Shown piece after piece: positions 1,602 to 16,822 of a stretch of 20,307 nt of DNA. A program made the position numbers and the translations under genes. Under the pieces are notes generated by a model, which ran no database searches, had not been told where the DNA came from, and saw nothing but the letters and a program-made list of their open reading frames with translations. Source of the stretch: a virus; the IMG/VR virus record IMGVR_UViG_3300050120_000176, positions 1-20,307 of that record; one strand, written 5' to 3'. Within the stretch, counting starts at the first letter, position 1; each line of letters opens with the position of its first letter.

Positions 1602-2909
1602 CTAGGTTACCTTTTTGAAGATACCCTCACCCAATCCAAACACCACTGCTGGTCCATATACAAAAGCGTCGAGCAAGTCATCAGCCCGCTTGTACGCTTC
1701 CTTATCATTTAGGTAGAATTTCTCTATCTGGGCCAACAAATGGTTCTTGGTTTTGCCATTGTATTCCTTAACTTTGGTAAAAGCACATTCATGAATCTTT
1801 ACCTTATGCCCATAAACGTGCCCACTTACACCAATCGCCCTCCCATCTTTGCCTACCGCCGTGATGCCGCTGGGGATCGGTGTCGCCACGTAACCCTGTA
1901 GCGCGCATTGCTGGAGCAGAATAATACCGCTGGCTTTATCTTCAATGTAGACTCCGCCCTCACTATGCTCGTATCCGTAGCGGGCTTTCAATCTGTCCGA
2001 CCAGCGCTCCATGTTGGCATACACTCCCGGGAGCCAATCGATTAGCAGCGCGCCATCGATCTTCACCACATCCCAATCCAATAACGTAAGGGGTGCCCCG
2101 TTACCGTATTTGTTGAATGCCCAGTAACAAACCGCCGTGCCATCGTGAGCTACTCCGTCCTTAACCGCGCTATCAATGGTGGCAAGGATGTATTCACAAT
2201 TAACCGGGTCGCCTACAGGCTTCCCATTATTGAGCAGGTACTCAACTTTAAAGAATGCGTCGCCACCCCAGTTGATAAACTCGGCCAAAATCTCCTGTTT
2301 GTAAACCAGCGGTGGGTAGTCGTATATCAGCTTTGCGACATCCTCAGCGGGCAGGTAGGGATTCTGTGCTGTCGGGGCATGAAACTCGGTGAACCCATAC
2401 TGTGGGTCGTTACATATTGCGTAGAAGAAATTCTCGTCGTCGGCACCATTGGGCGTACTCATAACCACTGCCCGGCCTTTGCGGTCGATCAGTGTCGGCT
2501 TGATTGCCTTCTTCCATACGTCCAACATGTTGGGGCGTGTGAAAGCCCCTTCGTCAATGATCACCAAGTCATATTTGCGACCACGACCCGGCATTTCATT
2601 ACTACCATCGAGCGACCAGAAATCGATGCCCCCACCATTGACGGACTTGAACACCATCGTGCTCTTGTTCGCACTCTTCTTAATCGGTGCGAGCAGCACC
2701 TCAAGTTCGTTATAGGTTTCCGATACAGTCTTATACGTGGGAACAAAAATACCAACGTTGCGGCCCTTCCCTATGGCATCGCCAGCGAGAATCTTACCGT
2801 AGTCGGTCTTACCCCATCGACGGCCACATCGTAGGGCGAAATATCTAGTACGTGCATTCCAGGCATTAACCTGCCCTTGGTGGAATAGCGGGAGTTCAAG
2901 TGTTGGCAT
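1602..2909 (-). CDS. terL: Terminase large subunit (packaging ATPase and nuclease)
   Basis: A 435-residue product. It is the motor that pumps phage DNA into the prohead and cuts it. ATPase domain: Walker A GRRWGKT at residues 29-35, Walker B LVIIDE at 115-120, and coupling motif MSTPNG further on. C-terminal RNase H-like nuclease domain: ATIDSAVKD with an early acidic residue, then IEDKASG, then RADDLLDAFVYG near the end supply the expected acidic metal ligands. The length fits the family. The ATG overlaps the stop of the small subunit gene (TAATG), indicating coupled translation. The set of motifs identifies the protein without doubt, but I cannot assign headful or cos packaging from them. 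Confidence 0.97.
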   Translation of the reverse strand: MPTLELPLFHQGQVNAWNARTRYFALRCGRRWGKTDYGKILAGDAIGKGRNVGIFVPTYKTVSETYNELEVLLAPIKKSANKSTMVFKSVNGGGIDFWSLDGSNEMPGRGRKYDLVIIDEGAFTRPNMLDVWKKAIKPTLIDRKGRAVVMSTPNGADDENFFYAICNDPQYGFTEFHAPTAQNPYLPAEDVAKLIYDYPPLVYKQEILAEFINWGGDAFFKVEYLLNNGKPVGDPVNCEYILATIDSAVKDGVAHDGTAVCYWAFNKYGNGAPLTLLDWDVVKIDGALLIDWLPGVYANMERWSDRLKARYGYEHSEGGVYIEDKASGIILLQQCALQGYVATPIPSGITAVGKDGRAIGVSGHVYGHKVKIHECAFTKVKEYNGKTKNHLLAQIEKFYLNDKEAYKRADDLLDAFVYGPAVVFGLGEGIFKKVT

Positions 2910-4000
2910 TACAGGCCACCACCCGGTAGTTCATCCGGCAATCCGCCTGCACTGCCCCCGGGCACTCCACCGATGATCGTCACTACAGAATCCTTCTTCA
3001 ACAGCGCTGCTGCTTTCTCGCCAGAGATCGCGGACTTCGCCAACAGCTTCTGTCGCTTCTGTTCGTTCTCGTCTAGTTGATCGCGCATGATCTTCTGATC
3101 CACGCCAATCCGCAAACAGAATAACCGGAATTCCTCCTGGGTCATCTCGCTTGGTGTCTTACCGCTTTCTGGATCTGGAATCTCTGGCTCTGGGTTAGGT
3201 AAATCATCTGGTAACCCGCCCGTCATTGACACCCCGCCGCTTCCCTGATCGCCCGCCCATTCTGGTGGTGCATCACCAAATTCCTTGGGTAAAATCTTGC
3301 TCAACATAAATTTACGTGCCTCGATCTTCACCCGTGATCGTTGTACGTTGTCGGTCATCACAATCTCTTTCGTGCCATCAGCCTTATCTACGATAGTCAC
3401 TGACATGCAGGGTGTGTCAGCAATATGGATAGTCTCATCTGCCCACACCATCGCCCGCATTTGTTGTGCGAGGGCGTACCGTTCTCGTAAGTCCTTGTCC
3501 TCAACCACCCAGCGTAAGAACACACTGGTTCCTGGCATATTACGATCTTCACAGATCTTCCGTAGGGGTATGCCATCAATCACACGTTCAAGTATGTACT
3601 CTGCTACTTCTGGGCAATAGGCCATACCCATATCTGCTCTTGATCTGAAATGATCTTGGGCAATGAAATTAGCCACTACCCACCTGCGGGCTTTTTCACC
3701 GAGTACACAGTCGTTTAGTTCTTCTACAGCTAAGATGATTTCAGCCGCACTTATGCCGCCGCGCTTTCTGGCTTCATCTACTGTTTGTGGGATGTGGTAT
3801 TGGCGTAGTTCTTCTGCTAATTCTCTATCTACCCCGATTCGTTCATCGGCCCAGTTATTGAACTTATCTAAATATGCTTGGGCTTTTTTTTGATCGGTCT
3901 TACTCATGATCTGAGCTTTCTGCTCTGCTGCCAGTCGGTTTTTCTCATAGCCTTTCTTGGTCGGCTTTTTTGGCTGGGGGTTGAGAATATTAACTGTCAT
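2909..4000 (-). CDS. terS: Terminase small subunit-like protein with long C-terminal tail
   Basis: A 363-residue product starting MTVNILNPQPKK. The part from about residue 130 to 240 resembles the Sf6-type small terminase: an ICEDRNMPGTSVFLRWV helix-turn-helix, then a stretch of aligned helices with IADTPC, and then RSRVKIEARKFMLSKILPKEFGD, which is a family hallmark. This subunit normally recognises the packaging site and feeds the large subunit. It is unusually long, with an extra N-terminal region of about 100 residues and a Pro/Gly/Glu-rich tail carrying two copies of a GGLPDDLP-like motif. An in-frame extension upstream to a TTG at 4090 would begin inside the repeat at 4081, so I rejected it. 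The chosen ATG has no strong ribosome binding site. Confidence 0.85.
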   Translation of the reverse strand: MTVNILNPQPKKPTKKGYEKNRLAAEQKAQIMSKTDQKKAQAYLDKFNNWADERIGVDRELAEELRQYHIPQTVDEARKRGGISAAEIILAVEELNDCVLGEKARRWVVANFIAQDHFRSRADMGMAYCPEVAEYILERVIDGIPLRKICEDRNMPGTSVFLRWVVEDKDLRERYALAQQMRAMVWADETIHIADTPCMSVTIVDKADGTKEIVMTDNVQRSRVKIEARKFMLSKILPKEFGDAPPEWAGDQGSGGVSMTGGLPDDLPNPEPEIPDPESGKTPSEMTQEEFRLFCLRIGVDQKIMRDQLDENEQKRQKLLAKSAISGEKAAALLKKDSVVTIIGGVPGGSAGGLPDELPGGGL

Positions 4001-4080
4001 GATCGGGTCACTGCATGAGCGTGCTGGGAGGTCAGTGTACAACAGCTTGTGGGTGAACAACAACATGCCTATAGAGCGCT

Positions 4081-4096
4081 CCGCAATCAATTGCGG
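4081..4096. repeat. 16-nt palindromic repeat, copy 2
   Basis: CCGCAATCAATTGCGG on the plus strand. The flanks extend the pairing: GCGCT on one side matches AGCGC on the other after a two-base bulge, making this the longest stem of the five. It lies just after the stop of the small membrane protein gene and 81 bases before the small terminase start. The minus-strand flank GGCGCTGT is shared with copy 1. Confidence 0.85.
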
Positions 4097-5828: not shown

Positions 5829-5981
5829 CTACAGCATCCCATCAATTTTAACAAAGCGCTCATATTGTGAGCGCCACGTCATGAAATCCTGCACGGGCTG
5901 CTTGTAATACTGACGAAAAGCCTTTTCCGCCATATAGGCCAGAAATATTTCGGTCGTGGTTACTTCGTAGTCTAGTATCAT
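5829..5981 (-). CDS. 50-residue protein coupled to the polymerase
   Basis: A 50-residue product, MILDYEVTTTEIFLAYMAEK at the start and FVKIDGML at the end. Its ATG overlaps the polymerase stop (ATGA), so it is probably translated by ribosomes that finish the polymerase. It is rich in aromatic residues and probably helical (KAFRQYYKQPVQDFMTWRSQ). No family is recognised. A small polymerase accessory role is possible only by position. The palindrome follows its stop immediately. Confidence 0.7.
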   Translation of the reverse strand: MILDYEVTTTEIFLAYMAEKAFRQYYKQPVQDFMTWRSQYERFVKIDGML

Positions 5982-8900
5982 AATTTCAACTTCTTCATGT
6001 CCGCTAGGTTATACCCGTATTTTGCATCAGCGGTAAATTGCAACTGGGGATTCCAGCCAACTTTATTAAACGGAAGATTTTGCATAATGTCGAGTTGTAG
6101 CTTCGTGCATTCCTCGTACTTGTCTTCCCGGATGTAATCGTATCCAGCATCATGCACTGCCAAGCAGGGCACAATAATTTGCTGTTCAAACAACTGGGGC
6201 AACATAAGCTGGCACTCTGAGAATGTCCATATCATCATGTCACTCAGCGCGCCTTGAGTCGGACTGTTGATCGCCTGCCTCTCAGCCTGTGCTCTTATGT
6301 TTTGCAGCGGACTATCAATCAGCGGTAAATGCCGAATCCGGCCCAGTGGCCCACGAACTTGCTTGTACTTCTTGGCCTCCCGCTTTTGCTGTGCATGATA
6401 GTTCTTAAGCAGCGGATAAAGGGTAAAGAATGCGTGGTCAAATTCCTCGGACTCCATATGCGTTAGGTCTACGCCGTAATTAATCCGAGCATACTCAATG
6501 AATCCCTCCACTCCCATGCCATAGATCTTACCAAAGTTACCGGCCTTGCCCTTCTGCCGAGTTTCCTCGTACAGGTACACAAGTGCTGCGTCTGTCGAGT
6601 TCTTCATCGCAATCATTTCATCATAAGTGTATCCAGCCACCTTGGCGCTTGTCTTCACATGCAGATCCATGCCATTGCGATAGGACTCAATCATGCTGGT
6701 TTCATTCGCCAAACAGGCAATGACCTTCAACTCACCCTGCTCGTAATCGCGCTCGACAATCACATATCCCGGTGGTGCGATGTAGCACTCACGCAGGCGC
6801 TTAGTCCATTTAGTGTGTTTGGGTATGGTGTTGTGAACAACAATACCGTTTGCCACAAATGAATGGCTACTTTGAATGGTCAAGTCAAACGTCTCTCTAT
6901 ACCCAGCTTCTTCAATGGATATGAGAACTACTTCATTGAAATACCGTGAGTTGACAGTTTTGGACTCGTCAATGCTTGCTCCATTGGCATCCCAATCGAT
7001 AGCCGATAGTGCAATCTCCCTCGACTCATTCCATACTCCCTGGCCCACTGTGCCTCGGTCTGAGTTTTGCCATTGTGCGTCAGCATTTTGGTATTGCGTC
7101 TGTTTTCTGCCTGCTGCTTCCGTGTTGCCCAGTGGCAATTGCCTTTCTCGTAGTTGCCATTCACATTCTGACGTTCGATTGACCACCCTTCCCCGGGCTT
7201 CTCCCCCAAATCCGCAAGAAAATTCTCGAAAGCCAGCCACCGCTCGCATACTTGAATGCCACGACCCCCGTAATCTTTCCAATCCTTGCTGGTTTTGCTT
7301 AAACAGCGGTTTTTCATAGCCGTCCATGAATAGTATGTTGGGCTTGTGTATGTCTGGGTCCGATGTCCTAGGCCACTGCCTTTCGTCGGCATATGAAATA
7401 TCCCCAATAGTTAATTCATCTGTACGTACCCATCCTCTAGCCGTTAAAACTGGGTGATTAGCAGTACATTTGATGATTTGTCCATTAGAGAATTTTAATT
7501 CATAAACTTTCTTAATGCCATTGCAATATGTGCCTACAATGGGTTGCCATTTACCGGTGTGCGTTAATACAGCTAACCCACCTCCTTTGTGTTGAACTAA
7601 CCAATCCAAGCGTTTTAATCCTACATTTGTCGTTACTAAAGTTTCTCCAACCATGCATTGAACTGCTGGGTTCTTGACTGAAAGCCGTCCTGTATCAGCC
7701 CCCCCTTCATCGTTGTCTCGATCCCCAACAAAAAAGAAGTAATTGGGATGAAACTTTCCATCACTGCGCACGCATTTCATAAACCCACGGACGTAGGTGC
7801 CCAGGGTTTTAGTCAGGCTCCCATACTCGCCCAGCAACTCAATAAATGCCGTGGCTTCAGGAATATCCTTGAATTTCATCAAGCTATCTAATGACGTACT
7901 GGGCTTGCCACTCTTAGCCGTAAAGTCCATTGGCTTCAAATCCAGGCCCATGGGACTAAACATATAGTCATTAATGAAAGAGGCTTTGGTGATATTCAGC
8001 CCACCCGCCTTTTCCTCGTCCTGATGCTTGGCTACCAGCCGCCCGCCAACTATCTGTTTGGCCTTGTGGACAATCTTCAATGCTTCTGTTTCCAGATCGG
8101 ACTCAAGTGCGCGGAATTTCTCAGGGTCGATAAAGATACCGCCTCGCTCTACCAGTTCAAAAGCGCGTGCCGCTGGGTGCAGGATATTCACATAAAACTT
8201 GGCAAGTGCCGGGTCTTCCAACAACTCCACCTTCATCTTGTCAGCTACTTGCCAATCTGCATCCGTATCTCCACCCGCATATGGTAGGAGTTTTTCACGG
8301 GGTACGAGATCCATTCGTGCTTTGTCGACTGTTTGATCGAAGACATCGCTGTACCCTCCCAAAGAAGGAACATATATTTTTGTATGGACGTCGAGACCAT
8401 TAATCCTATTTTCATCGAGCAAACTCCCTACTAAGGTCGTGTCCAATTTGAAATTGGTACAGGTAAAGTCCCCGCGCTTCGCCAGCCAGCGCAAATCGTA
8501 CTTGAGGTTAGCCCCGCGCAGGCTAATCATCGGGCTACTCAACAGCCAACTAAGCCGCTGGGCAAATTCAAAGTTAGTGAGGCGGTCCTGTTCATGCTTG
8601 GCATTGTCGAAATAGACAACATCTGATTTGCCGGGTTCGCAAGTGACTTGAATACTTACTATGTACGCGCCTGGGTGGCCTGTAGCTGGATCGGGAAGCT
8701 TGTACTCATCCAAGCCCACTGTTTCAAGGTCAAGCGCTACAGGCACTGGCTGTTGGGTCTTGCAGTAGAGAGCGATGATTCGCTGTTGTATCTCTTGGAA
8801 GTGCTCGACGTATCGATACTCACCTAGCTTAGGTTCGATTGAACCCGTTGCAGCCAGTCGAGCTACCATGCCGGTGTCAGTCAGCAAGGTAATGAACATC

Positions 8901-9202
8901 CCGTAATCGACTTCTTTGATACCCGGGCTATAGCTCACCATTACCGGAATATCATTCGGCAGTGTCAGCACACGAGCGCGCATACTACCGATCTTTCTGT
9001 TCTTGGGTACTACTCCCATTTCTTGCAAAACTGCAAGCGAATCTGGCCCAAGCGCGAACACCGCATCAGGCTGAAGATCCGCTATCTCACCGTAATTCTG
9101 GACGTATTCTACCTTTAGATCAGGCTGCTGCCGGAGGGCTAAGGAGAGCGAGGACCGAACCTTGCTTGGCGGATAATTGCACCAAACGCACAGAGTCTTC
9201 AT
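5978..9202 (-). CDS. polA-like: Family A DNA polymerase with 3'-5' exonuclease, interrupted by an intein
   Basis: The precursor has 1074 residues; removing the 276-residue intein leaves 798. It is the phage replicative polymerase. Residues 1-145 look like a uracil-DNA-glycosylase-like fold found at the N-terminus of some phage polymerases (FALGPDSL, IGSMRARVL, MVSYSPG). The exonuclease domain has DLET (Asp158, Glu160), NLKYD (Asp236) and YAGGD (Asp312). Polymerase motifs: TGRLSVKNPAVQ before the intein, IPKHT after it, motif A ERDYEQGEL (Asp819), motif B RQKGKAGNFGKIYG, and motif C VHDAG (Asp1018), where the usual Glu after HD is Ala. I take ATG at 9202 (MKTLCVWC), weakly supported by GGGA upstream; ATG at 9214 is possible. 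The gene overlaps the preceding gene by 83 bases. Confidence 0.96.
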   Translation of the reverse strand: MKTLCVWCNYPPSKVRSSLSLALRQQPDLKVEYVQNYGEIADLQPDAVFALGPDSLAVLQEMGVVPKNRKIGSMRARVLTLPNDIPVMVSYSPGIKEVDYGMFITLLTDTGMVARLAATGSIEPKLGEYRYVEHFQEIQQRIIALYCKTQQPVPVALDLETVGLDEYKLPDPATGHPGAYIVSIQVTCEPGKSDVVYFDNAKHEQDRLTNFEFAQRLSWLLSSPMISLRGANLKYDLRWLAKRGDFTCTNFKLDTTLVGSLLDENRINGLDVHTKIYVPSLGGYSDVFDQTVDKARMDLVPREKLLPYAGGDTDADWQVADKMKVELLEDPALAKFYVNILHPAARAFELVERGGIFIDPEKFRALESDLETEALKIVHKAKQIVGGRLVAKHQDEEKAGGLNITKASFINDYMFSPMGLDLKPMDFTAKSGKPSTSLDSLMKFKDIPEATAFIELLGEYGSLTKTLGTYVRGFMKCVRSDGKFHPNYFFFVGDRDNDEGGADTGRLSVKNPAVQCMVGETLVTTNVGLKRLDWLVQHKGGGLAVLTHTGKWQPIVGTYCNGIKKVYELKFSNGQIIKCTANHPVLTARGWVRTDELTIGDISYADERQWPRTSDPDIHKPNILFMDGYEKPLFKQNQQGLERLRGSWHSSMRAVAGFREFSCGFGGEARGRVVNRTSECEWQLRERQLPLGNTEAAGRKQTQYQNADAQWQNSDRGTVGQGVWNESREIALSAIDWDANGASIDESKTVNSRYFNEVVLISIEEAGYRETFDLTIQSSHSFVANGIVVHNTIPKHTKWTKRLRECYIAPPGYVIVERDYEQGELKVIACLANETSMIESYRNGMDLHVKTSAKVAGYTYDEMIAMKNSTDAALVYLYEETRQKGKAGNFGKIYGMGVEGFIEYARINYGVDLTHMESEEFDHAFFTLYPLLKNYHAQQKREAKKYKQVRGPLGRIRHLPLIDSPLQNIRAQAERQAINSPTQGALSDMMIWTFSECQLMLPQLFEQQIIVPCLAVHDAGYDYIREDKYEECTKLQLDIMQNLPFNKVGWNPQLQFTADAKYGYNLADMKKLKL
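6830..7657 (-). other. Intein in the DNA polymerase
   Basis: The 828-base in-frame insert encodes 276 residues from Cys (codon 7657-7655) to Asn (codon 6832-6830). Block A is CMVGETLVTTNVGLKRLDWL, block B has TANHPVL with the conserved Thr and His, block F contains ETFDLTIQSSHSFVANG, and block G ends VVHN followed by Thr as the +1 nucleophile. All the residues needed for protein splicing are visible. It lies inside the TGRLS...Q-NIP signature of family A polymerases, a nearly invariant active-site segment. The splicing domains occupy roughly the first 85 and last 35 residues; the region between them is a poorly ordered Gln/Arg/Ser/Trp-rich linker because the same DNA encodes another protein in a different frame. 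Confidence 0.95.
6928..7392 (-). CDS. HNH-like homing endonuclease nested out of frame inside the intein
   Basis: A 154-residue product read in a different frame from the polymerase. Residues 20-60 contain the phage nuclease signature YYSWTAMKNRC...DYGGRGIQVCERW and residues 71-100 contain IERQNVNGNYEKGNCHWA followed by QAENRR, which matches a family of phage HNH-like endonucleases whose usual form is LDRIDNNGNYxPGNCRWA. Residues 105-142 look like a DNA-binding helix-turn-helix (THNGKTQTEAQWAREYGMSR). The usual first Asp/His position reads Glu/Gln here, so catalytic activity is uncertain. ATG at 7392 has GGGGA eight bases upstream; a TTG at 7407 is also in frame. The stop TAG lies before intein block F. 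A free-standing gene within the intein is the simplest reading. Confidence 0.85.
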   Translation of the reverse strand: MPTKGSGLGHRTQTYTSPTYYSWTAMKNRCLSKTSKDWKDYGGRGIQVCERWLAFENFLADLGEKPGEGWSIERQNVNGNYEKGNCHWATRKQQAENRRNTKMLTHNGKTQTEAQWAREYGMSRGRLHYRLSIGMPMEQALTSPKLSTHGISMK

Positions 9203-9602
9203 ACCAAGTCCCATTTGGGTTGTAACTATAGGCAGTAATCAGCCCGGGTTTTAGCTTGGTCAGGGTGTTGGCAATGCTCTTGCCGCCAAATCCCGTGCAG
9301 TCCTTCACATGCAGCTTAACGATGGACCCATCAACAACACAGACCATCAGGGGCTGGCAACTGGAACTGATTGCATAGAGCCATAGGTTGCCCATCACCT
9401 TAACAAAGAACCCGCACTGCGTGGGCGTGAGCACGTCGCTGACGACTACTACCTCGGCATCGATCCGCCACGGGCCTGCCAGCACTTTGCGCAAGTCGCA
9501 CCCACGCACTCGACCATCCGGCATTTCGTGTAACTCTACACCCAGTGCGTCAGCAACAGGGTAGAGCATAACATCTGGAATGTTTGAAGGGGTGTAACTC
9601 AT
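9120..9602 (-). CDS. Hypothetical protein upstream of the polymerase
   Basis: A 160-residue product beginning MSYTPSNIPDVMLYP. GGAG six bases before this ATG fixes the start over the TTG-like longer form. It is probably a soluble alpha/beta protein, with a strand-rich middle (IDAEVVVVSDV, LMVCVVDGSIVKLHV) and a Gly-rich segment CTGFGGKSIANTL. I recognise no domain. It overlaps the first 83 bases of the polymerase gene, so the two are likely translationally coupled. A replication accessory role is possible but rests on position only. Confidence 0.65.
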   Translation of the reverse strand: MSYTPSNIPDVMLYPVADALGVELHEMPDGRVRGCDLRKVLAGPWRIDAEVVVVSDVLTPTQCGFFVKVMGNLWLYAISSSCQPLMVCVVDGSIVKLHVKDCTGFGGKSIANTLTKLKPGLITAYSYNPNGTWYEDSVRLVQLSAKQGSVLALLSPPAAA

Positions 9603-9603
9603 T

Positions 9604-9846
9604 TCAGTCTCCAAGGGTATCAATAACTAATTCGTTAGGGAGCTTCTCGATTACGACTTTCTGCAAAAACACAGAATTCCAAAACAGGCTGAATTCCCAA
9701 AACCGACCGTCTTCTATCTCGACGCAATGGGCGTCCAGATCCGATCCGAAGCCAGTTAAGAAGTTATTGAACTTGATTACATCCCCTACCTTGAGGGGCT
9801 TTACCCGCTCAAGTAAGGATTGTGCGGCTTTTGTGTTTGTCTTCAT
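9604..9846 (-). CDS. Hypothetical protein, small beta-rich
   Basis: An 80-residue product starting MKTNTKAAQSLLERV. A short helix is followed by KPLKVGDVIKFNNFLTGFG and strand-like segments, resembling a small barrel, but the assignment is weak. The ATG overlaps the stop of the glycine-rich protein gene (TAATG), so it belongs to the operon that runs into the polymerase. Function unknown. Confidence 0.65.
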   Translation of the reverse strand: MKTNTKAAQSLLERVKPLKVGDVIKFNNFLTGFGSDLDAHCVEIEDGRFWEFSLFWNSVFLQKVVIEKLPNELVIDTLGD

Positions 9847-11024
9847 TATTGAAGCTCCGTTACATTTTTGATCTGTTGGTCAAAAGTAATGCCGCAATCA
9901 AATAAAAATGCGCCAATTATCCGTCCTGGGGGCACTCCGTCGCCCCCCATATGCACTGAAAAATGCGTATCGTGTTCGGTCATACCCAGGTTATGAAGGG
10001 CCATTAACTCGTCATTAAGGGCATTATCAAATTCAGCTCTAATACTGATCTTGCTGCCCTTAATCCGTGCCGCCAGCTTTACCCGTGGATTGATAGCCAT
10101 CACCGTGTAAATCGAAGCAGGGTCTGTTCCTGCTACCTTCTGGCCCACTTGTACTGCATCCCGCAGCTTGACAACACCCTCGGGCAGTACTACTGGGATA
10201 CTCGAAGGGGGGATTGGCTTAGCGTCTTTGGACTTCTTGGCCTTAGAAGGCTTCGGAACCGCCAAATCCACTATGAACTCAAGAGCCTTATCAGCAAGAA
10301 GAGCCTTATCGTGTTCTGCTTTGTCCTTGGCCGCTAGAATGTCTTCTTTCTCTGTATCCGATAAGCCCTTGGGTGTGAGAAAATCAGCACCGCTCTTAAG
10401 GATCGCAGCCATCAACTGCTTGTTTTCCTCAAGTATTGCTTTATCCTTCAGGGTATCCGGCCCATTGGATATCACATTAATTTGAAAAGGCGTACCAGAT
10501 GCTGCTCCGCCACCACCGAAGCCTGTACCGCTATCCCAAGGTTGCGCCGATGCCCCTCCCGTGCCATTCCCACCCCCGCCTGCCCCGCCTGAGAAGTGCA
10601 ACGGGCCTCCGCCACCAGACGCGCCATGAGTGGGGGCACCCGGCACATTGACTGATACCACTGATACCACTCCCTTGAGTGTGTCTGGTTTTCCAATCCC
10701 CGCCCCAGCGACAGCCTCACTCAGACCATTTTCTACATTGGAAATCGCTATCGATAGCGCGAATTTGTGGATAAAGTCGATAACCTGCTTCTTAACCTGC
10801 TCAAAGACTACTGGATTACCGGCCTTCTTCATCATTGATGAGGTATTCACCGGTAGATCCAGGGTCGCCTTGACGGTTTTATAGCTGGCCTTGATAGACG
10901 TGAACTCGGTGCTAATCACCGCGCCGATGTCAATCAGCGGATCGATATTTGCTTTTGTCCACTCGGGACCAAAGACCTCTTTAAAGAGAGCCTTCTGAGA
11001 CGCGGGGCTTAGGGACACAGCCAT
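9846..11024 (-). CDS. Two-part protein with glycine-rich hinge, unknown function
   Basis: A 392-residue product starting MAVSLSPASQKALFKE. The ribosome binding site AGGAGAAGGAGA directly precedes this ATG and fixes it over the upstream GTG-like start. Layout: an N-terminal helical part (about residues 1-125), a hinge of about 55 residues with repeated Gly and GGGG runs, a charged helical part (KDKAILEENKQLMAAIL, EKEDILAAKDKAEHDK), a Pro/Lys/Ser linker, and a C-terminal domain of about 105 residues with FSVHMGGDGVPPGRIIG. It is the first gene after the promoter at 11069-11096 and leads into the polymerase. The flexible hinge suggests a scaffold or nucleic-acid-binding adaptor; this is inference. 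Confidence 0.8.
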   Translation of the reverse strand: MAVSLSPASQKALFKEVFGPEWTKANIDPLIDIGAVISTEFTSIKASYKTVKATLDLPVNTSSMMKKAGNPVVFEQVKKQVIDFIHKFALSIAISNVENGLSEAVAGAGIGKPDTLKGVVSVVSVNVPGAPTHGASGGGGPLHFSGGAGGGGNGTGGASAQPWDSGTGFGGGGAASGTPFQINVISNGPDTLKDKAILEENKQLMAAILKSGADFLTPKGLSDTEKEDILAAKDKAEHDKALLADKALEFIVDLAVPKPSKAKKSKDAKPIPPSSIPVVLPEGVVKLRDAVQVGQKVAGTDPASIYTVMAINPRVKLAARIKGSKISIRAEFDNALNDELMALHNLGMTEHDTHFSVHMGGDGVPPGRIIGAFLFDCGITFDQQIKNVTELQ

Positions 11025-11068
11025 TCTCCTTCTCCTGTTACGCACTCCATTGCCAGGACTCCACGGTT

Positions 11069-11099: not shown

Positions 11100-11825
11100 T
11101 TACCAGATCAGCTTGGGTGATTCGACTGGGTAAATGTCGCGCACTGAATCGGCAAAACCCACTGTCTTCTTGTGACTGCCACCACTACTTCCTTGGTAGC
11201 CGTTGGTGCCTACTTTGTTGTCCCAGTGGCTTTCTACCCCGGTGCCACCCTTTGGGGATTTCGTTACCAAGAACTTTTTTGTTTCAGCCGCATCCTTGCA
11301 CGCGTAGTGGTCCATTAGGAATTTAACCTGGGATTGCGTCTCAACCGCCTTGTGACAGTAGTTCTTGCGTACGTATGCAATCGGGTCAGCCATGCCGGTC
11401 ATCACCGACACGACCGCCGCTAGGAATGTCCCTGTACGCCCGTGCCCGCCCATGCATCCCGCGTGTACCTTGCGGCCCGCACGAAGCTGCTCACACGTCC
11501 AATCCACGAGCTTGCGAAAAGATGCAGCATTGCTGGGGGGTGCCATATCGACAATGGGGTAATGAATCACCGTCACTGGCTTATAGCCCTTCATCCAGGG
11601 GTAAGTCACATTTGGGTTGACCGCATCAGTGCCGAAACCGATATACACCTCGGCATCAACCACTGCTGGAGTGGTGCCACTCCCGCCATAGATCTCGTAC
11701 TCCAGGCCGTCCAGGGCCTCGAATTTTAGCGCTGGGTGTGAATAGTAGCATGACAGCGAGCCACCTTTGCCTCCTTTCCACAGAAAATCGTCACCAGCCG
11801 CTGCGGTGCTATATTTTTTTGCCAT
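11100..11825 (-). CDS. Dual-specificity/tyrosine phosphatase-like protein (paralogue 2)
   Basis: A 241-residue product. The phosphatase loop is VHAGCMGGHGRTG at residues 120-132: Cys124 and Arg130 form the C-x5-R motif, and Asp93 in HYPIVDMAPP is well placed (31 residues before Cys) to act as general acid. Downstream YVRKNYCHKAVETQSQ matches the conserved helix of dual-specificity phosphatases. The common HC before x5-R is changed to HAGC. It would remove phosphate from Tyr, Ser/Thr or another phospho-substrate through a cysteine intermediate. The Gly/Lys-rich tail (about residues 190-225) is outside the domain. ATGGAGT lies in its leader, but no own promoter is seen; it shares a transcript with the 351-residue gene. 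Confidence 0.85.
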   Translation of the reverse strand: MAKKYSTAAAGDDFLWKGGKGGSLSCYYSHPALKFEALDGLEYEIYGGSGTTPAVVDAEVYIGFGTDAVNPNVTYPWMKGYKPVTVIHYPIVDMAPPSNAASFRKLVDWTCEQLRAGRKVHAGCMGGHGRTGTFLAAVVSVMTGMADPIAYVRKNYCHKAVETQSQVKFLMDHYACKDAAETKKFLVTKSPKGGTGVESHWDNKVGTNGYQGSSGGSHKKTVGFADSVRDIYPVESPKLIW

Positions 11826-11844: not shown

Positions 11845-12900
11845 TTAGGCCGGTGTCAGCCGTTTATAAATCGGCACTTCTACTCCTGGGAGTATTTTAA
11901 ATACTCCCACCTGCTCGGCTTTGTAACCGTTAAAATCAATCGGTTTTCCCTTAGGCTTCCCATATTTCTTGTCTTGCAGGTTTTTGTACTGCGGGTAATG
12001 GTTGACCGACCCAAGAGCCTCGACCTTGTACCAGTCAACATAAGTACCAAATTCATTCCCGATGTGAGACTGTGCCTCCTTGAATAGAGCGCTCTGGGTC
12101 TTAGTCAGACTCCCGTAACCGTACTCGATAGCAAATTCAGGTATTTGGCCGCTGCGCTGTACATCGAGAATCCGCATGAAATCAGAACTGTAACTATCGT
12201 ACAACATGCCTTTATTGAACATAGGGCCATTATTGTGTGCCAGCGTGTACGCGGTATCCACCATCATTTCCTGGGTGGTCTTGCCATCCAAAAACTGATT
12301 CAGGCACTTGGTTATGTTCGCCCAGGGTAGGCCACCATAGCCCCCATTATAGCCGCCGTGACTAAACATCGCCTCGATAGCTTTGAAAAAATTACCTACA
12401 CTGCATTGAGGGGGGCTGTTCAAAAACGTAGTTACCACGGCACTACTGTTCTTACTTTTGATCTTGAAGTGAAACTCCTTAGGTCCAGTACCAAAGGGCT
12501 TAACGATATGCTTATCCCAAAAAGTGTCGGGCTTGGATGTTAGGTGTCTATTTTCCCTGGTGGTGATCAGCGCCATATACGATACAAGTCGGCTTCCCTG
12601 CTTGGAAACAATATCCTCGTACTCACGCATAATGCCAGCCGCCCACCCGGGCAGGGGTTCATGCCGTGTGAACTTGTCTTTGATGATTGAAGACAAGTGG
12701 TTGAACAAATAAAACTGGAAGGCTTCGTTATCAGGCGATACTAAGCAAGTCCCGTATTTGGCCTCTTCTTCCAGAGTGGTCTTGTACGTTTTGATGTTCG
12801 TCGCAAACGTCTGACATGACACATTTGCCAGATTGATCAAATGGAGTTGGGGTAAGCGCTCGAAGTAAGCCAGCGTATTATTTGGAATTGCCTTCACCAT
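11845..12900 (-). CDS. Orphan 351-residue protein between two phosphatases
   Basis: A 351-residue product starting MVKAIPNNTLAYFERLP; I do not recognise it. No signal peptide or membrane segment is visible. A basic middle part (FHFKIKSKNSSAVVTTFLN) precedes a Gly/Tyr-rich turn (HGGYNGGYGGLPW) and a striking segment, MMVDTAYTLAHNNGPMFNKG, that looks like a conserved core because of its His-Asn-Asn-Gly cluster. It is transcribed from a near-perfect promoter and followed by a phosphatase gene on the same unit, so it may be that enzyme's partner or substrate. The ATG lies close to GGAG (three bases); GTG at 12897 would give better spacing and differs by one residue. Confidence 0.8.
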   Translation of the reverse strand: MVKAIPNNTLAYFERLPQLHLINLANVSCQTFATNIKTYKTTLEEEAKYGTCLVSPDNEAFQFYLFNHLSSIIKDKFTRHEPLPGWAAGIMREYEDIVSKQGSRLVSYMALITTRENRHLTSKPDTFWDKHIVKPFGTGPKEFHFKIKSKNSSAVVTTFLNSPPQCSVGNFFKAIEAMFSHGGYNGGYGGLPWANITKCLNQFLDGKTTQEMMVDTAYTLAHNNGPMFNKGMLYDSYSSDFMRILDVQRSGQIPEFAIEYGYGSLTKTQSALFKEAQSHIGNEFGTYVDWYKVEALGSVNHYPQYKNLQDKKYGKPKGKPIDFNGYKAEQVGVFKILPGVEVPIYKRLTPA

Positions 12901-12956: not shown

Positions 12957-13135
12957 TAATCGAATATGGGTTGCGGAATCACCGGTCTGATTCTCTCCAC
13001 CCAGGCCCAGTCGAAAATGATGCCCTGCATCAACAACTCGCAGCGTGCTTTGTGAGCGACCTCAGCGTAAGTGTCGGCCTGGAATTTCACTCTACTCCCA
13101 GACACCTGCCCATTGGCGTACCAAAGCTCGTACAT
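12953..13135 (-). CDS. Hypothetical 60-residue protein
   Basis: A 60-residue product starting MYELWYANGQVSG. It has alternating hydrophobic strands followed by a helix (TYAEVAHKARCELLMQG) and ends IPQPIFDY, an alpha/beta arrangement like a small RNA- or protein-binding fold, without a recognised family. The ATG overlaps the stop of the phosphatase gene before it (TGATG), with AAGG upstream. Its own stop codon lies within the -35 box of the next promoter. Confidence 0.7.
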   Translation of the reverse strand: MYELWYANGQVSGSRVKFQADTYAEVAHKARCELLMQGIIFDWAWVERIRPVIPQPIFDY

Positions 13136-13659
13136 CACCACGCCTTAAATTTCGATGGGGGTTTTGCGTCATAGCCGGGGGGTAAGTAAGTCAAGCAGTC
13201 GGCATGACGGAAGCGTGCTATGAGTTGCAGGGTTTTGATCAGATACCGAGTTTGCCATGGCACCACAAAATCCTCGACATACTTGTACTGTTGGGGTGTC
13301 TCGACTGCGTGCTTGTAGTAATTCGCTCGTACGTACTCCACCGGATTCTTCTCGCCAAAAGCCTTTGCCAAGATCGCCATGAACAGCCCGGTACGGCCTT
13401 TGCCGCCCATGCAGCCAACATATACCGCGCTACCAAAAGCCATTTCAACCACAGCATCGTGTAAGCCCTTAGTCACAAGCTTCACGTCGGGTATGTGGAA
13501 ATCACGGGTAGGAATATCAATTTCCTCCGCATCATGCGCCAGAGGCACTTCCTTAGCCATCTTGACACCGACCATGCCCTTAGGCTTCTCAATGTACGGC
13601 CCACCGAGTACCACGTAATGTTTGGTGCCGCGCACCGGCAGTTTGAGTTTGCCAAGCAT
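13135..13659 (-). CDS. Dual-specificity/tyrosine phosphatase-like protein (paralogue 1)
   Basis: A 174-residue product. The phosphatase loop is VYVGCMGGKGRTG at residues 79-91, with Cys83 and Arg89 in the C-x5-R motif. Asp53 in IPTRDFHIPD, 30 residues earlier, fits the general acid. The later YVRANYYKHAVETPQQ is the conserved helix of dual-specificity phosphatases. As in paralogue 2 the residues before Cys are not the usual His, here YVG. The protein is close to the minimal domain length. It opens a unit led by the promoter at 13688-13715 and is coupled to the next gene by TGATG. The in vivo substrate is unknown. Confidence 0.88.
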   Translation of the reverse strand: MLGKLKLPVRGTKHYVVLGGPYIEKPKGMVGVKMAKEVPLAHDAEEIDIPTRDFHIPDVKLVTKGLHDAVVEMAFGSAVYVGCMGGKGRTGLFMAILAKAFGEKNPVEYVRANYYKHAVETPQQYKYVEDFVVPWQTRYLIKTLQLIARFRHADCLTYLPPGYDAKPPSKFKAW

Positions 13660-13743: not shown

Positions 13744-14061
13744 CTAAGGAAATTTCAAGTCAAAGTATCGCTCGATCAGGCCCACCCAGCCGCAGTAGGC
13801 ACAACCGTCGCCTTCACACTCGGTGCATTCTTCTTGTGCCATTTCCTGCCCCCTGCCCACTTGGGTAAGGTGCTTTTTGCACAACCACAGTACATTGTTG
13901 CCAGTCACCCACATTACCCACGAGTGATACCGCCGATTGCCGTGCGGGTGACTAATGATCGCCGCCCGGGTAATCATCACTTCAAGCTCATCCATGGTAA
14001 TAGCCGTTTCAGCCATCACGCGCAGGACTTGGGGAGCAAGGATGTACTTAGACTGTGACAT
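13744..14061 (-). CDS. Zinc-knuckle protein, unknown role
   Basis: A 105-residue product starting MSQSKYILAPQVLRV. The N-terminal half contains a helix (ITMDELEVMITRAAI) and a segment with HGNRRYHSWVMWV; the C-terminal part has ECTECEGDGCAYCGW, where CxxC and CxxC are separated by short Gly spacers, as in DnaJ-type zinc knuckles. Zinc binding is likely; function is not. The start lies two bases after the stop of the CsrA-like gene and has no strong ribosome binding site of its own, so it is probably coupled. Confidence 0.7.
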   Translation of the reverse strand: MSQSKYILAPQVLRVMAETAITMDELEVMITRAAIISHPHGNRRYHSWVMWVTGNNVLWLCKKHLTQVGRGQEMAQEECTECEGDGCAYCGWVGLIERYFDLKFP

Positions 14062-14062
14062 G

Positions 14063-14365
14063 CTAGTGCTTCGGGGGTTTGATACGGTGAATCGGGATCG
14101 AGGTGGGGGCTTCAAAAGTTAAACGACTGTGTGTTTCAGAATACCCTTCTGGCATATCCCAATTGGTAATCACGTTGTCATACACCCCACAGGATACAAA
14201 AACATCCGGGAGAATTTCAGTGCGTTCTTCGTCGGAAATAATGAACTCTGTTTTGCCTACTTCGATCTTTAGCTCCTTGCCGCCGTCTTCCACAGACACC
14301 ACCCGTAGCATTATATCGCCCACCTTAATCTTACTACCTCGGCGAACTCCTAGAGCCAAAGCCAT
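14063..14365 (-). CDS. CsrA-like RNA-binding regulator
   Basis: A 100-residue product. The N-terminus ALGVRRGSKIKVGDIMLRVV follows the CsrA beta-strand pattern, and the last part, LTFEAPTSIPIHR (residues 82-94), matches the CsrA core APKxVxVHR, including the Arg (here Arg94) that contacts RNA in the family. Between them is an insertion of about 40 residues (DEERTEILPDVFVS onward) not found in the roughly 60-residue bacterial protein. CsrA proteins bind ANGGA sequences, often over ribosome binding sites, and alter translation. Many leaders here contain AUGGA. It has a strong ribosome binding site, AAAGGAG. The CsrA call is by pattern and should be confirmed by profile search. Confidence 0.65.
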   Translation of the reverse strand: MALALGVRRGSKIKVGDIMLRVVSVEDGGKELKIEVGKTEFIISDEERTEILPDVFVSCGVYDNVITNWDMPEGYSETHSRLTFEAPTSIPIHRIKPPKH

Positions 14366-14368
14366 GAT

Positions 14369-14773
14369 CTACTCCTTTAGTAATTCCTGCGCCTGAGCCG
14401 TAACCGTCCAGAGACTGCCGCCCGCCATTCTTTTTCGGGCCGTGGTCTGCTGTACGAAGCCCTTGGCTTTCAATACATACAGGTAACTCGCTACTTCTTT
14501 CGCTCGGGTTATCCCGTTCGTGCCCGCAAGCCGTTGCGTAATTTGCCCACTGTCCGCCTCCACCAACTCAACTAAGGCCTTGAGCGTTACCAGTAGGTTC
14601 GATCCGGCTGGTGGTAGTTTTGGCTTTTGTCGTGGTTCAAGTTCTCCTAAACAAATCTGATCAAGTAATGAGGCCACTACCCTATGATACCCACACAGAC
14701 ATCGAAGTGTGACGTCTACCCTATCGCGTGACAGCCACGCGTTAGAACTCCCACATTTAGGGCAGTGTGACAT
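14369..14773 (-). CDS. Zinc-ribbon, winged-helix DNA-binding protein
   Basis: A 134-residue product. Residues 4-29 form a small zinc ribbon (CPKC then CLCGYH, so C-x2-C and C-x-C). Residues 60-133 look like a winged helix: LLVTLKALVELVEA, then a recognition region TRAKEVASYLYVLKAKGFV, then a wing with basic residues (TARKRMAGGSLWTV). This is a layout of transcription regulators, probably acting on phage DNA. Its own promoter carries a perfect palindrome over the -10 box, suggesting autoregulation. No Shine-Dalgarno sequence precedes the ATG, which is unusual here; the leader predicted from the -10 box is only about 20 bases. Confidence 0.75.
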   Translation of the reverse strand: MSHCPKCGSSNAWLSRDRVDVTLRCLCGYHRVVASLLDQICLGELEPRQKPKLPPAGSNLLVTLKALVELVEADSGQITQRLAGTNGITRAKEVASYLYVLKAKGFVQQTTARKRMAGGSLWTVTAQAQELLKE

Positions 14774-14831: not shown

Positions 14832-16811
14832 CTACCGCATTTGTAGCGCCTGTACATCAGATATGAAACTCACATCCGGTCCCAGGGATCCATAACTTGC
14901 GTACTTAAATCCACCCTCCTTCTCTTTCCAAGCCACCACCATTTTTACCGCTTTCGCATACATATCCAGATCCCCGGAAAACACTAGCCCCTCGGCCAGT
15001 ATCAGATCTTCTAGTGTATTAATGCTGCGTATGACCTTCCACTGCTTATGCAAGCTCTCTGTCAAGCCAATCAGCACGAACTTCTTTTGATCGTCTGTAC
15101 GATAGGTGCCAAGCGCAGCGAGAAGCGGTAAATACCCGAACTGGTCCGGCTGGTCGAACAATTGGAAGAACCGCTTTTCAGCTTCAACAATTCTTGTTTG
15201 TCTCAAATCGATGTAAAGTGTATCGACTTGGGGCAATAACTTTTCAATGTTGGCAACGTCCTTAGCCATTAACTGTGGTGAAGGACTTGCGTGGTACAAA
15301 ACTACCTTTGCGCCTTGAGCATCAGGACCGTCAACAATGGGCACATATTTCAATGCCCCCCGCATGATCCGCAGGTAATGGGCCGCTGCTTCGTTTTCGT
15401 GCCCATCGATCACAGGCACTTCCATATCCCAGATTCTTCCCGTACCACCATCCATACCCAGGGTTTCACCTGCCTGAAATTGGATCAAAGGTAGACCCAC
15501 CCCCACAATACAGGGCTTGTTCATCCCACGAGCCACCACTGCCGCGTGGCAAGTACTGCCCCCTGTCATGGTAACAATCCCCTGCGCTGCATACATACCT
15601 GCAATATCATCAGGGGTCGTTTCATTAGTCACTAAAATGCACGGAATGCCTGCCTCCGCCGTAGCAACGGCTTGTTTGGCAGTAAGAACAATCCTGCCCG
15701 AAGTTACCCCACTACAGGCACTGATACCATTCGCCATCGGTTTTTTATCAAATTTTGGATTGATTACACACTGCTGGGCCTTGTCAAAATCCGTAATCTG
15801 GATCCGACTTGTCAATTGATCCCAACTAATTAGGCCTTCCTCCACCATGTCCACACCAATCTTTAGCGCGGCAATCGGTGTACGTTTGGCGTTACGCGTT
15901 TGGAGAATGTATAACTTTCCATCCTGTACCGTAAACTCCATATCCTGCACATCGCCCTTGAGTTTTTCAGCACGGTCAGATACTTCCGCAAGCTCCTGAG
16001 CGACTGCTTCATTCCAAGCTTTAAGTTCGGTAAGGGGCCTGGGCGTCGTACTGCCATCCACTACATCCTCGCCTTGAGCGTTCACCGCAAACTCACCAGT
16101 CAATTCATTTTCGCCCGTATCCGGGTTACGAGTGAACAGCACGCCCGTGCACGATTGGTCATTGAAGTTTCCAAATACCATGGCTTGCACAACCACCGCT
16201 GTGCCCCAGTCTTCAGGGATGTTATTGAGTTTGCGATAGATTTTTGCCCGGTCATTATTCCACGATTGGAATACCGCTTCAATCGACCCAAGCAACTGTT
16301 CCTGGGCTTTCGGGAAGTCCTCCCCAGTCAGTTCTTTATACTTGGGAAATGAATCTCCCGGTACTTCGCACCGGTCAAAGTGCTTTTTGTTGATGCCTTT
16401 AACCACTGCGCCATACATGTGAATCAAACGGTTTTCACTATTCAACACGCAGTCATTACCAATGCGTTTGGCCCATTCCAACACATTTGACTCATCGATT
16501 CCGACATTAAGAATAGTGTCCATCATCCCAGGGAGACTGACTCTCGCTCCGGAACGGACTGAAACCAACGGCATGTAACCAAAATGGTTTTCCAATTTCT
16601 TTAGAAAAGGTTTTATTTCTTTCGAAAGTTGTTTCAAAAACGTTTTCGGAGCTTTCTCATACGCAGCCATGTACTTACATGGAATAACAAACCCTGGAGG
16701 CACATTAAGGCCATTGCTCGCCATCCACACCAAGCCGCCTCCTTTCCCACCCAATACCTCAACTGAGGTTTCGGTAACTTGGTCCCCTAACCCAAACGAA
16801 TAAATATCCAT
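14832..16811 (-). CDS. PPDK-like phosphotransferase lacking the PEP-binding domain
   Basis: A 659-residue product starting MDIYSFGLG, with GGAG five bases before this ATG. The nucleotide-binding part has the PPDK signatures VSVRSGARVSLPGMMDT, GVLFTRNPDTGENEL, AQGEDVVDG and LYILQTRNAKRTP. The swivelling domain carries the catalytic histidine in GGSTCHAAVVARGMNKPC (His422). In PPDK this histidine is phosphorylated from ATP and Pi and passes phosphate to pyruvate. Here the C-terminal TIM barrel (about 340 residues) is missing and about 190 unrecognised residues replace it (DTLYIDLRQTR, PLLAALGTYRTDD). The phosphate acceptor is therefore unknown. It is transcribed with the HNH gene upstream. Confidence 0.92.
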   Translation of the reverse strand: MDIYSFGLGDQVTETSVEVLGGKGGGLVWMASNGLNVPPGFVIPCKYMAAYEKAPKTFLKQLSKEIKPFLKKLENHFGYMPLVSVRSGARVSLPGMMDTILNVGIDESNVLEWAKRIGNDCVLNSENRLIHMYGAVVKGINKKHFDRCEVPGDSFPKYKELTGEDFPKAQEQLLGSIEAVFQSWNNDRAKIYRKLNNIPEDWGTAVVVQAMVFGNFNDQSCTGVLFTRNPDTGENELTGEFAVNAQGEDVVDGSTTPRPLTELKAWNEAVAQELAEVSDRAEKLKGDVQDMEFTVQDGKLYILQTRNAKRTPIAALKIGVDMVEEGLISWDQLTSRIQITDFDKAQQCVINPKFDKKPMANGISACSGVTSGRIVLTAKQAVATAEAGIPCILVTNETTPDDIAGMYAAQGIVTMTGGSTCHAAVVARGMNKPCIVGVGLPLIQFQAGETLGMDGGTGRIWDMEVPVIDGHENEAAAHYLRIMRGALKYVPIVDGPDAQGAKVVLYHASPSPQLMAKDVANIEKLLPQVDTLYIDLRQTRIVEAEKRFFQLFDQPDQFGYLPLLAALGTYRTDDQKKFVLIGLTESLHKQWKVIRSINTLEDLILAEGLVFSGDLDMYAKAVKMVVAWKEKEGGFKYASYGSLGPDVSFISDVQALQMR

Positions 16812-16813
16812 TT

Positions 16814-16822
16814 TCACTCCAT
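16814..16822 (-). promoter_or_regulatory. ATGGAGTGA motif at the end of the HNH gene
   Basis: ATGGAGTGA on the minus strand is both the last sense codons plus stop of the HNH gene and the ribosome binding site for the PPDK-like gene, whose ATG lies two bases after the stop. Ribosomes ending the first gene are therefore placed to start the second. Confidence 0.65.

Follow-up and report, generated by a model that had tools for sequence, protein, structure and literature searches.

The kinase encoded in the analysed window, a 20,307-nucleotide stretch of viral DNA (IMG/VR record IMGVR_UViG_3300050120_000176, positions 1 to 20,307), forms, together with two phosphatases, the phrog_20946 protein and a specific family A DNA polymerase (PolA), one conserved replication-linked module, as shown by synteny and co-occurrence; no description of this cassette was found in the literature searched. 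The balance of the sequence evidence tips, if narrowly, towards a kinase derived from pyruvate phosphate dikinase (PPDK) that would no longer use pyruvate and would work as a phosphohistidine kinase within a replication-linked phosphotransfer module, with its acceptor in trans and chemistry on DNA or nucleotides as its purpose. The features concerned are listed below, with family frequencies among 80 IMG/VR loci collected using phrog_20946 as the anchor, in which gene order was scored wherever the contig reaches far enough.

14832..16817, minus strand: PPDK-like phosphohistidine kinase, 661 aa, GTG start
14835..15350, minus strand: variable C-terminal domain of the kinase (residues ~490-661), without a homologue by sequence outside the kinase family
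14369..14773, minus strand: 134-aa protein with a Cys-rich N-terminus (CPKC...CLC; a Zn ribbon by eye), family in 28/80 loci
14063..14365, minus strand: CsrA-like protein, 100 aa, family in 75/80 loci
13744..14115, minus strand: 123-aa protein with CxxC motifs, family in 70/80 loci
13135..13659, minus strand: PTP1, PTP/DSP-type phosphatase, 174 aa, P-loop GCMGGKGRTG, PTP-SAK 1.8e-7
11845..12900, minus strand: phrog_20946 protein, 351 aa, all-helical, from profile match and predicted structure
11100..11825, minus strand: PTP2, PTP/DSP-type phosphatase, 241 aa, P-loop GCMGGHGRTG, PTP-SAK 1.9e-8
9846..11045, minus strand: 399-aa protein with no assigned function, its C-terminal ~110 aa conserved, family in 74/80 loci
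9604..9846, minus strand: 80-aa protein, family in 68/80 loci
5978..9214, minus strand: family A DNA polymerase containing an intein; in isolates, polymerase type and cassette go together one to one

The kinase comprises an ATP-grasp domain (residues ~1-340), a His domain (~360-465, with His424), a linker (466-489) and the variable C-terminal domain (490-661); the first-pass annotation had described the same ORF, counted from its second Met, as 14832-16811. Pfam recognizes PPDK_N at 1.1e-44 and the mobile His domain, PEP-utilizers, at 1.6e-22, PDB PPDK sequences align as far as residue 485, and the phrog_18609 profile matches residues 17-478 with an E-value of 2.7e-158 and 529.5 bits, which places the protein in that family. 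All ATP-grasp catalytic residues of PPDK are present. By alignment to PDB sequences, K25, R88, D292, E294, Q306, R308, T422 and H424 correspond to PPDK K22, R92, D321, E323, Q335, R337, T453 and H455, a numbering checked on the PDB mutant titles K22A, R337A and T453A. Except for residue 292, which is D or E, these positions are invariant in 61/61 phage homologues, including the T422 and H424 of the TxHA signature that carries the catalytic His. The intact ATP-binding and phosphohistidine signatures reported by the first-pass annotation are therefore borne out by Pfam domains and invariant residues alike, its His422 being His424 here, and its view that the gene has not simply decayed agrees with the invariance of the catalytic residues across the 61 homologues, which rules out a pseudogene. 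The AF2 model of the kinase has a mean pLDDT of 91.9, with a dip around residues 541-560, and the phage rows of the kinase tree fit one origin in a sampling that includes few cellular PPDKs and two badly cut rows.

The PEP/pyruvate barrel of PPDK, which had been called missing from the letters of the window, is indeed absent by sequence. Each of seven barrel motifs (GLCRTE, GTND, CGE and similar) occurs in 0/61 phage homologues, against positive results in 4-7 of 9 cellular PPDK/EI-type control sequences, and the motifs are likewise missing from the Vibrio, Rhizobium and Rhodobacter versions of the kinase. Pfam yields no PEP_utilizers_C match in the protein and nothing past residue 460. The C-terminal ~190 aa, first described as unrecognised, gave no match in Pfam or PDB sequence searches, including any to STAS or another known C-terminal fold, and HHalign against cellular PPDK barrels gave a correctly registered match for the linker helix (466-489) alone and no homology beyond it. 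Structural comparison reaches further. In a VIA-align comparison of the whole AF2 model with 1kbl, 641 of the 661 residues are aligned (Z 41.0, rmsd 8.8). As the aligned stretch crosses the PPDK barrel region, the C-terminal domain may be what is left of a strongly reduced barrel. On enzyme I (2wqd), 289 of the last 303 kinase residues are aligned at poor rmsd, while rifampin phosphotransferase (RPH), which has no barrel, aligns to the model only as far as residue 466; Foldseek alignment lengths for the kinase looked global and were left out of the barrel judgement.

From the same observations, the first-pass annotation had argued that the new C-terminal part replaces the acceptor domain and that the phosphate may go to something other than pyruvate. 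The second idea is the natural reading of motifs found in none of the 61 homologues; the first does not fit the conservation pattern. Traced in other phages, as had been proposed, the domain is present in relatives, but it varies from 132 to 235 aa in length (~130-165 aa in several subfamilies). No other part of the kinase is less conserved, and no column of the domain is invariant, which makes it an improbable acceptor site.

These results bear directly on the published role of the gene. Papers on Vibrio cassette phages call it an auxiliary metabolic PPDK (PMC12038007, PMC9229204, PMC10141217), which would feed glycolysis or gluconeogenesis, and one of them, the J26 paper, overlapped residues 1-527 with PPDK 1GGO, called the four-stranded C-terminal domain a TIM barrel and docked PEP into the model. 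PPDKs are the best known relatives of the kinase, and the docking and the structural alignment across the barrel region both speak for this role. Against it stand the loss of all seven barrel motifs, a C-terminal domain that is unconserved and roughly half as long as the barrel, an alignment to PPDK of only 489/691 residues in the J26 paper itself, and a score against TIGR01828 far under the cut-off (457.6 bits versus 843.45, the best stretch covering profile positions 186-520 of 865). With the barrel motifs missing, we reject a glycolytic PPDK as scarcely credible; use of pyruvate by the kinase is very unlikely, and the published label "pyruvate phosphate dikinase" is almost certainly wrong for the sequences at hand.

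The surroundings of the gene point elsewhere. A block with the order kinase, small ORFs, PTP1, a phrog_20946 protein of ~340 aa, PTP2 and DNA polymerase A is common to Stenotrophomonas phages DLP3 and DLP5, Rhodobacter RcZahn and Rhizobium TM16 and, except for PTP2, also to Vibrio 1.215. Around phrog_20946 in the IMG/VR loci, the kinase lies upstream in 65/65, PTP1 upstream in 75/75, PTP2 downstream in 74/74 and PolA downstream in 70/70; four further small or medium families of the block recur in 68-75 of the 80 loci, and a fifth in 28/80. Kinase and phrog_20946 mark identical sets of isolates, each occurring in 39 genome records and additionally on a short fragment of Vibrio phage VHS1, with Vibrio, Stenotrophomonas, Rhizobium and Rhodobacter as hosts. 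Among 50,697 phage records, the best 40 relatives of the window's PolA are all from cassette phages (194-307 bits), the next phages reaching at most 168. Co-occurrence is partly a matter of common descent, since most cassette phages share their terminase and polymerase types.

The block behaves as a unit, because the window genes flanking the island on both sides recur in 0/80 loci and because the large terminase of the window (1602-2909 and 2909-4090, both on the minus strand) bears no relationship to the DLP3-type terminase that most cassette phages carry. This sequence pattern suggests that the island has been transferred between phage types and here sits in a different phage background, although the terminase mismatch may instead come from a chimeric contig. 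Vibrio-type loci such as 1.215 have no recognizable PTP2, so not every part of the cassette is indispensable.

Several other features of the block were recorded. At the PTP2 position of Vibrio phage 1.215.A (locus L005, 8025-8855) lies an unrelated gene without a PTP motif, whose equivalents are annotated as "transporter" or as pyruvate decarboxylase in other Vibrio phages. The CsrA-like protein matches Pfam CsrA at E=4e-4, under the curated cut-off, and has an apparent insertion; this phage-encoded, CsrA-like regulator is fixed in the replication block. The polymerase carries an intein (Pfam Intein_splicing, 9e-14) at residues ~563-795, which places it after the exonuclease part and before the final portion of the polymerase domain.

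Both phosphatases are of the PTP/DSP type, with the CX5R motif kept in the loci inspected, a nearly invariant general-acid Asp column and Pfam PTP-SAK matches above the cut-off; the P-loop of PTP2 reads GCIGGHGRT in most relatives, and PTP1 is homologous in sequence to archaeal PTPs in the PDB. The label "thymidylate synthase" attached to PTP2 relatives (DLP3_141, DLP05_143 and phrog_17568) is ruled out, the CX5R P-loop being that of a PTP. Between the two genes, phrog_20946 has 18 invariant residues among 74 members, including E116, R118, D215, H222, N223, K230, D246 and Q248, and its confident, all-helical model (pLDDT 94.2) finds no PDB relative: there is no match by sequence, Foldseek E-values never fall below 0.74, and VIA Z-scores stay at or below 3.7. 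The protein thus apparently adopts a new fold, although a missing fold match is no proof of one. Its conservation makes it look like an enzyme of unrecognised fold, and it is a better candidate for the acceptor side than the C-terminal domain of the kinase.

A sequence of steps can be proposed from these parts. The invariant catalytic residues indicate that His424 would be charged from ATP with a phosphoryl or pyrophosphoryl group. PPDK chemistry runs via pyrophosphohistidine, so transfer of a pyrophosphoryl group is also possible. The swivelling His domain would then pass the group in trans, most likely to a substrate held by phrog_20946, and the two PTPs would act on the phosphorylated intermediate or product, for clean-up or reversal. 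Since two phosphatases, phrog_20946 and a single type of DNA polymerase always accompany the kinase, its target is probably not pyruvate but something connected with phage DNA. The weakest step is the purpose, which may be phosphorylation-dependent chemistry on phage DNA or nucleotides, that is, genome modification; taken alone, we regard this purpose as a serious possibility that falls somewhat short of even.

The same genes could be read in three other ways. The presence of a kinase and two PTP-fold phosphatases in one block, the kinship of these phosphatases to archaeal protein tyrosine phosphatases and the CsrA-like regulator beside them would all suit reversible protein phosphorylation, in which phosphate from His424 would go to a host protein, to phrog_20946 or to the polymerase and be taken off again by the PTPs, providing a replication switch. 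PPDK-family enzymes, however, act mostly on small molecules or carbohydrates, the 18 invariant residues of phrog_20946 resemble an active site rather than a phosphorylation target, and a regulatory switch could do without a conserved pair of phosphatases belonging to different subtypes; we consider this reading unlikely, if worth keeping in mind. Nucleotide or energy metabolism, meaning interconversion of ATP, AMP, phosphate and pyrophosphate or phosphorylation of a nucleotide precursor for the adjoining polymerase, would make use of the intact ATP-grasp and His domains and account for the constant company of PolA. Such a partial reaction, however, leaves phrog_20946, which is unlike any known nucleotide enzyme, and both PTPs without a task, and we give it little credence.

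Repair of nucleic acid ends, or evasion of defence, would cast the PTP-SAK-like domains as nucleic acid phosphatases and let the kinase restore phosphates after RNA or DNA damage by host defence. Both PTPs exceed the cut-off of PTP-SAK, a family presumably named after RNA-repair proteins, but the conserved block holds neither a ligase nor a nuclease, the search for defence families returned no PADLOC match, and we know of no precedent for PPDK chemistry on nucleic acid ends, all of which makes this explanation improbable. Phosphotransfer in trans in the service of DNA or nucleotide chemistry is the reading that we carry forward.

Two cassette phages offer a link to DNA modification. DLP5 DNA was cut by 4/36 restriction enzymes and described as heavily modified (PMC5834331), and DLP3 DNA resists 15/15, in a study that did not determine the modification chemistry (PMC7326821); for Vibrio or Rhodobacter cassette phages, no restriction data were found in the literature searched. 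Neither DLP3 nor DLP5 has a thymidylate-synthase-type hydroxymethylase, HMUDK_hel, ADDT or QueC, the HMUDK_hel and ADDT searches having found the positive controls W-14 and Vi01; a Tet_JBP search gave no match, and its control gave none either. Both phages also possess a cluster of sugar and glycosyltransferase genes, and the greater part of their gene content has no annotation. This cluster is a rival source of modification, and the link between the cassette and DNA is for that reason suggestive only. In DLP3, genes DLP3_096-102 (locus L123, 18671-24096) encode a PIG-L deacetylase, WcaG, WecE and a glycosyltransferase beside ParB, and in Rhizobium TM16, epimerase, aminotransferase and glycosyltransferase genes adjoin ParB; these ParB-linked sets are possible DNA glycosylation genes in some cassette phages.

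The most specific form of the proposal goes further: an enzyme of the phosphohistidine or pyrophosphohistidine type, rather than a P-loop kinase, would phosphorylate DNA bases or nucleotides with phrog_20946, of apparently new fold, as the helical acceptor protein, the PTPs would process the product, and the dedicated PolA would copy the modified template. We put it forward tentatively, as a guess more apt to fail than to hold. If true, a PPDK-derived route would be a new kind of phage genome modification and would explain the restriction resistance of DLP3 and DLP5.

At least 39 deposited phage genomes carry the kinase gene, usually annotated and published as a PPDK that boosts host glycolysis. 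Instead of this glycolytic label, the analysis offers a conserved set of enzymes that is linked to one type of DNA polymerase and includes an unexplained helical protein; with the heavily modified DNA of DLP3 and DLP5, the nature and origin of the modification become a directly testable question.

Comparison with known systems sets the cassette among several partial counterparts. In the W-14 and ViI pathways of thymidine hypermodification, DNA bases are phosphorylated and then substituted, which resembles the chemistry proposed here; the enzymes differ, as DLP3 and DLP5 lack HMUDK_hel, ADDT and the hydroxymethylase, and the 74 members of phrog_20946 have no Pfam match and hence none to HMUDK_hel or ADDT. 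PPDK itself (EC 2.7.9.1; TIGR01828; 1kbl) shares with the phage kinase the ATP-grasp domain, the swivelling phosphohistidine domain, the linker and all catalytic residues of the first two domains. It differs in its barrel, which in the phage enzyme is absent or cut to a variable domain of ~130-235 aa without active-site motifs, and in genetic context, the phage gene always being grouped with two PTPs, phrog_20946 and PolA. PEP synthase is more distant (TIGR01418, 100.9 against a cut-off of 739.75).

Short cellular PPDK-like families without the barrel are already known, as are relatives with acceptors other than pyruvate. The short "PPDK" model NF004531/PRK05878 (534 positions) ends near the His domain and matches kinase residues 12-477; the window kinase falls just below its cut-off of 456 with 422.5 bits, and the DLP3 homologue passes it with 460.5. 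Unlike that family, the window kinase has an extra C-terminal domain and lies in a phage gene neighbourhood that is new. Bacillus phage G gp139 (365 aa; locus L130) is likewise a phage PPDK-like protein without a barrel, but it is very short, with ATP-grasp and His parts only and no C-terminal domain, and no cassette gene is annotated in the 8.8 kb around it; it adjoins an FtsZ-like gene.

RPH and the PigC/RedH ligases combine PPDK-type ATP-grasp and His domains with a non-pyruvate acceptor. The kinase scores far under the PigC/RedH cut-offs and, against RPH (NF041857), reaches 62.2 with a cut-off of 999. In RPH the His domain is C-terminal (chain residues ~760-865) and the acceptor domain internal, whereas the His domain of the kinase occupies residues 363-461 of 661 and is followed by another domain. 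The two-component kinase HpeHI (PMC12167813; PDB 9goj) also combines PPDK/PEP-synthase-type chemistry and divided functions with phosphorylation of an acceptor other than pyruvate; there the ATP-grasp and His parts lie on separate chains, whereas in the phage kinase these two parts are fused and it is the acceptor part that is apparently separate.
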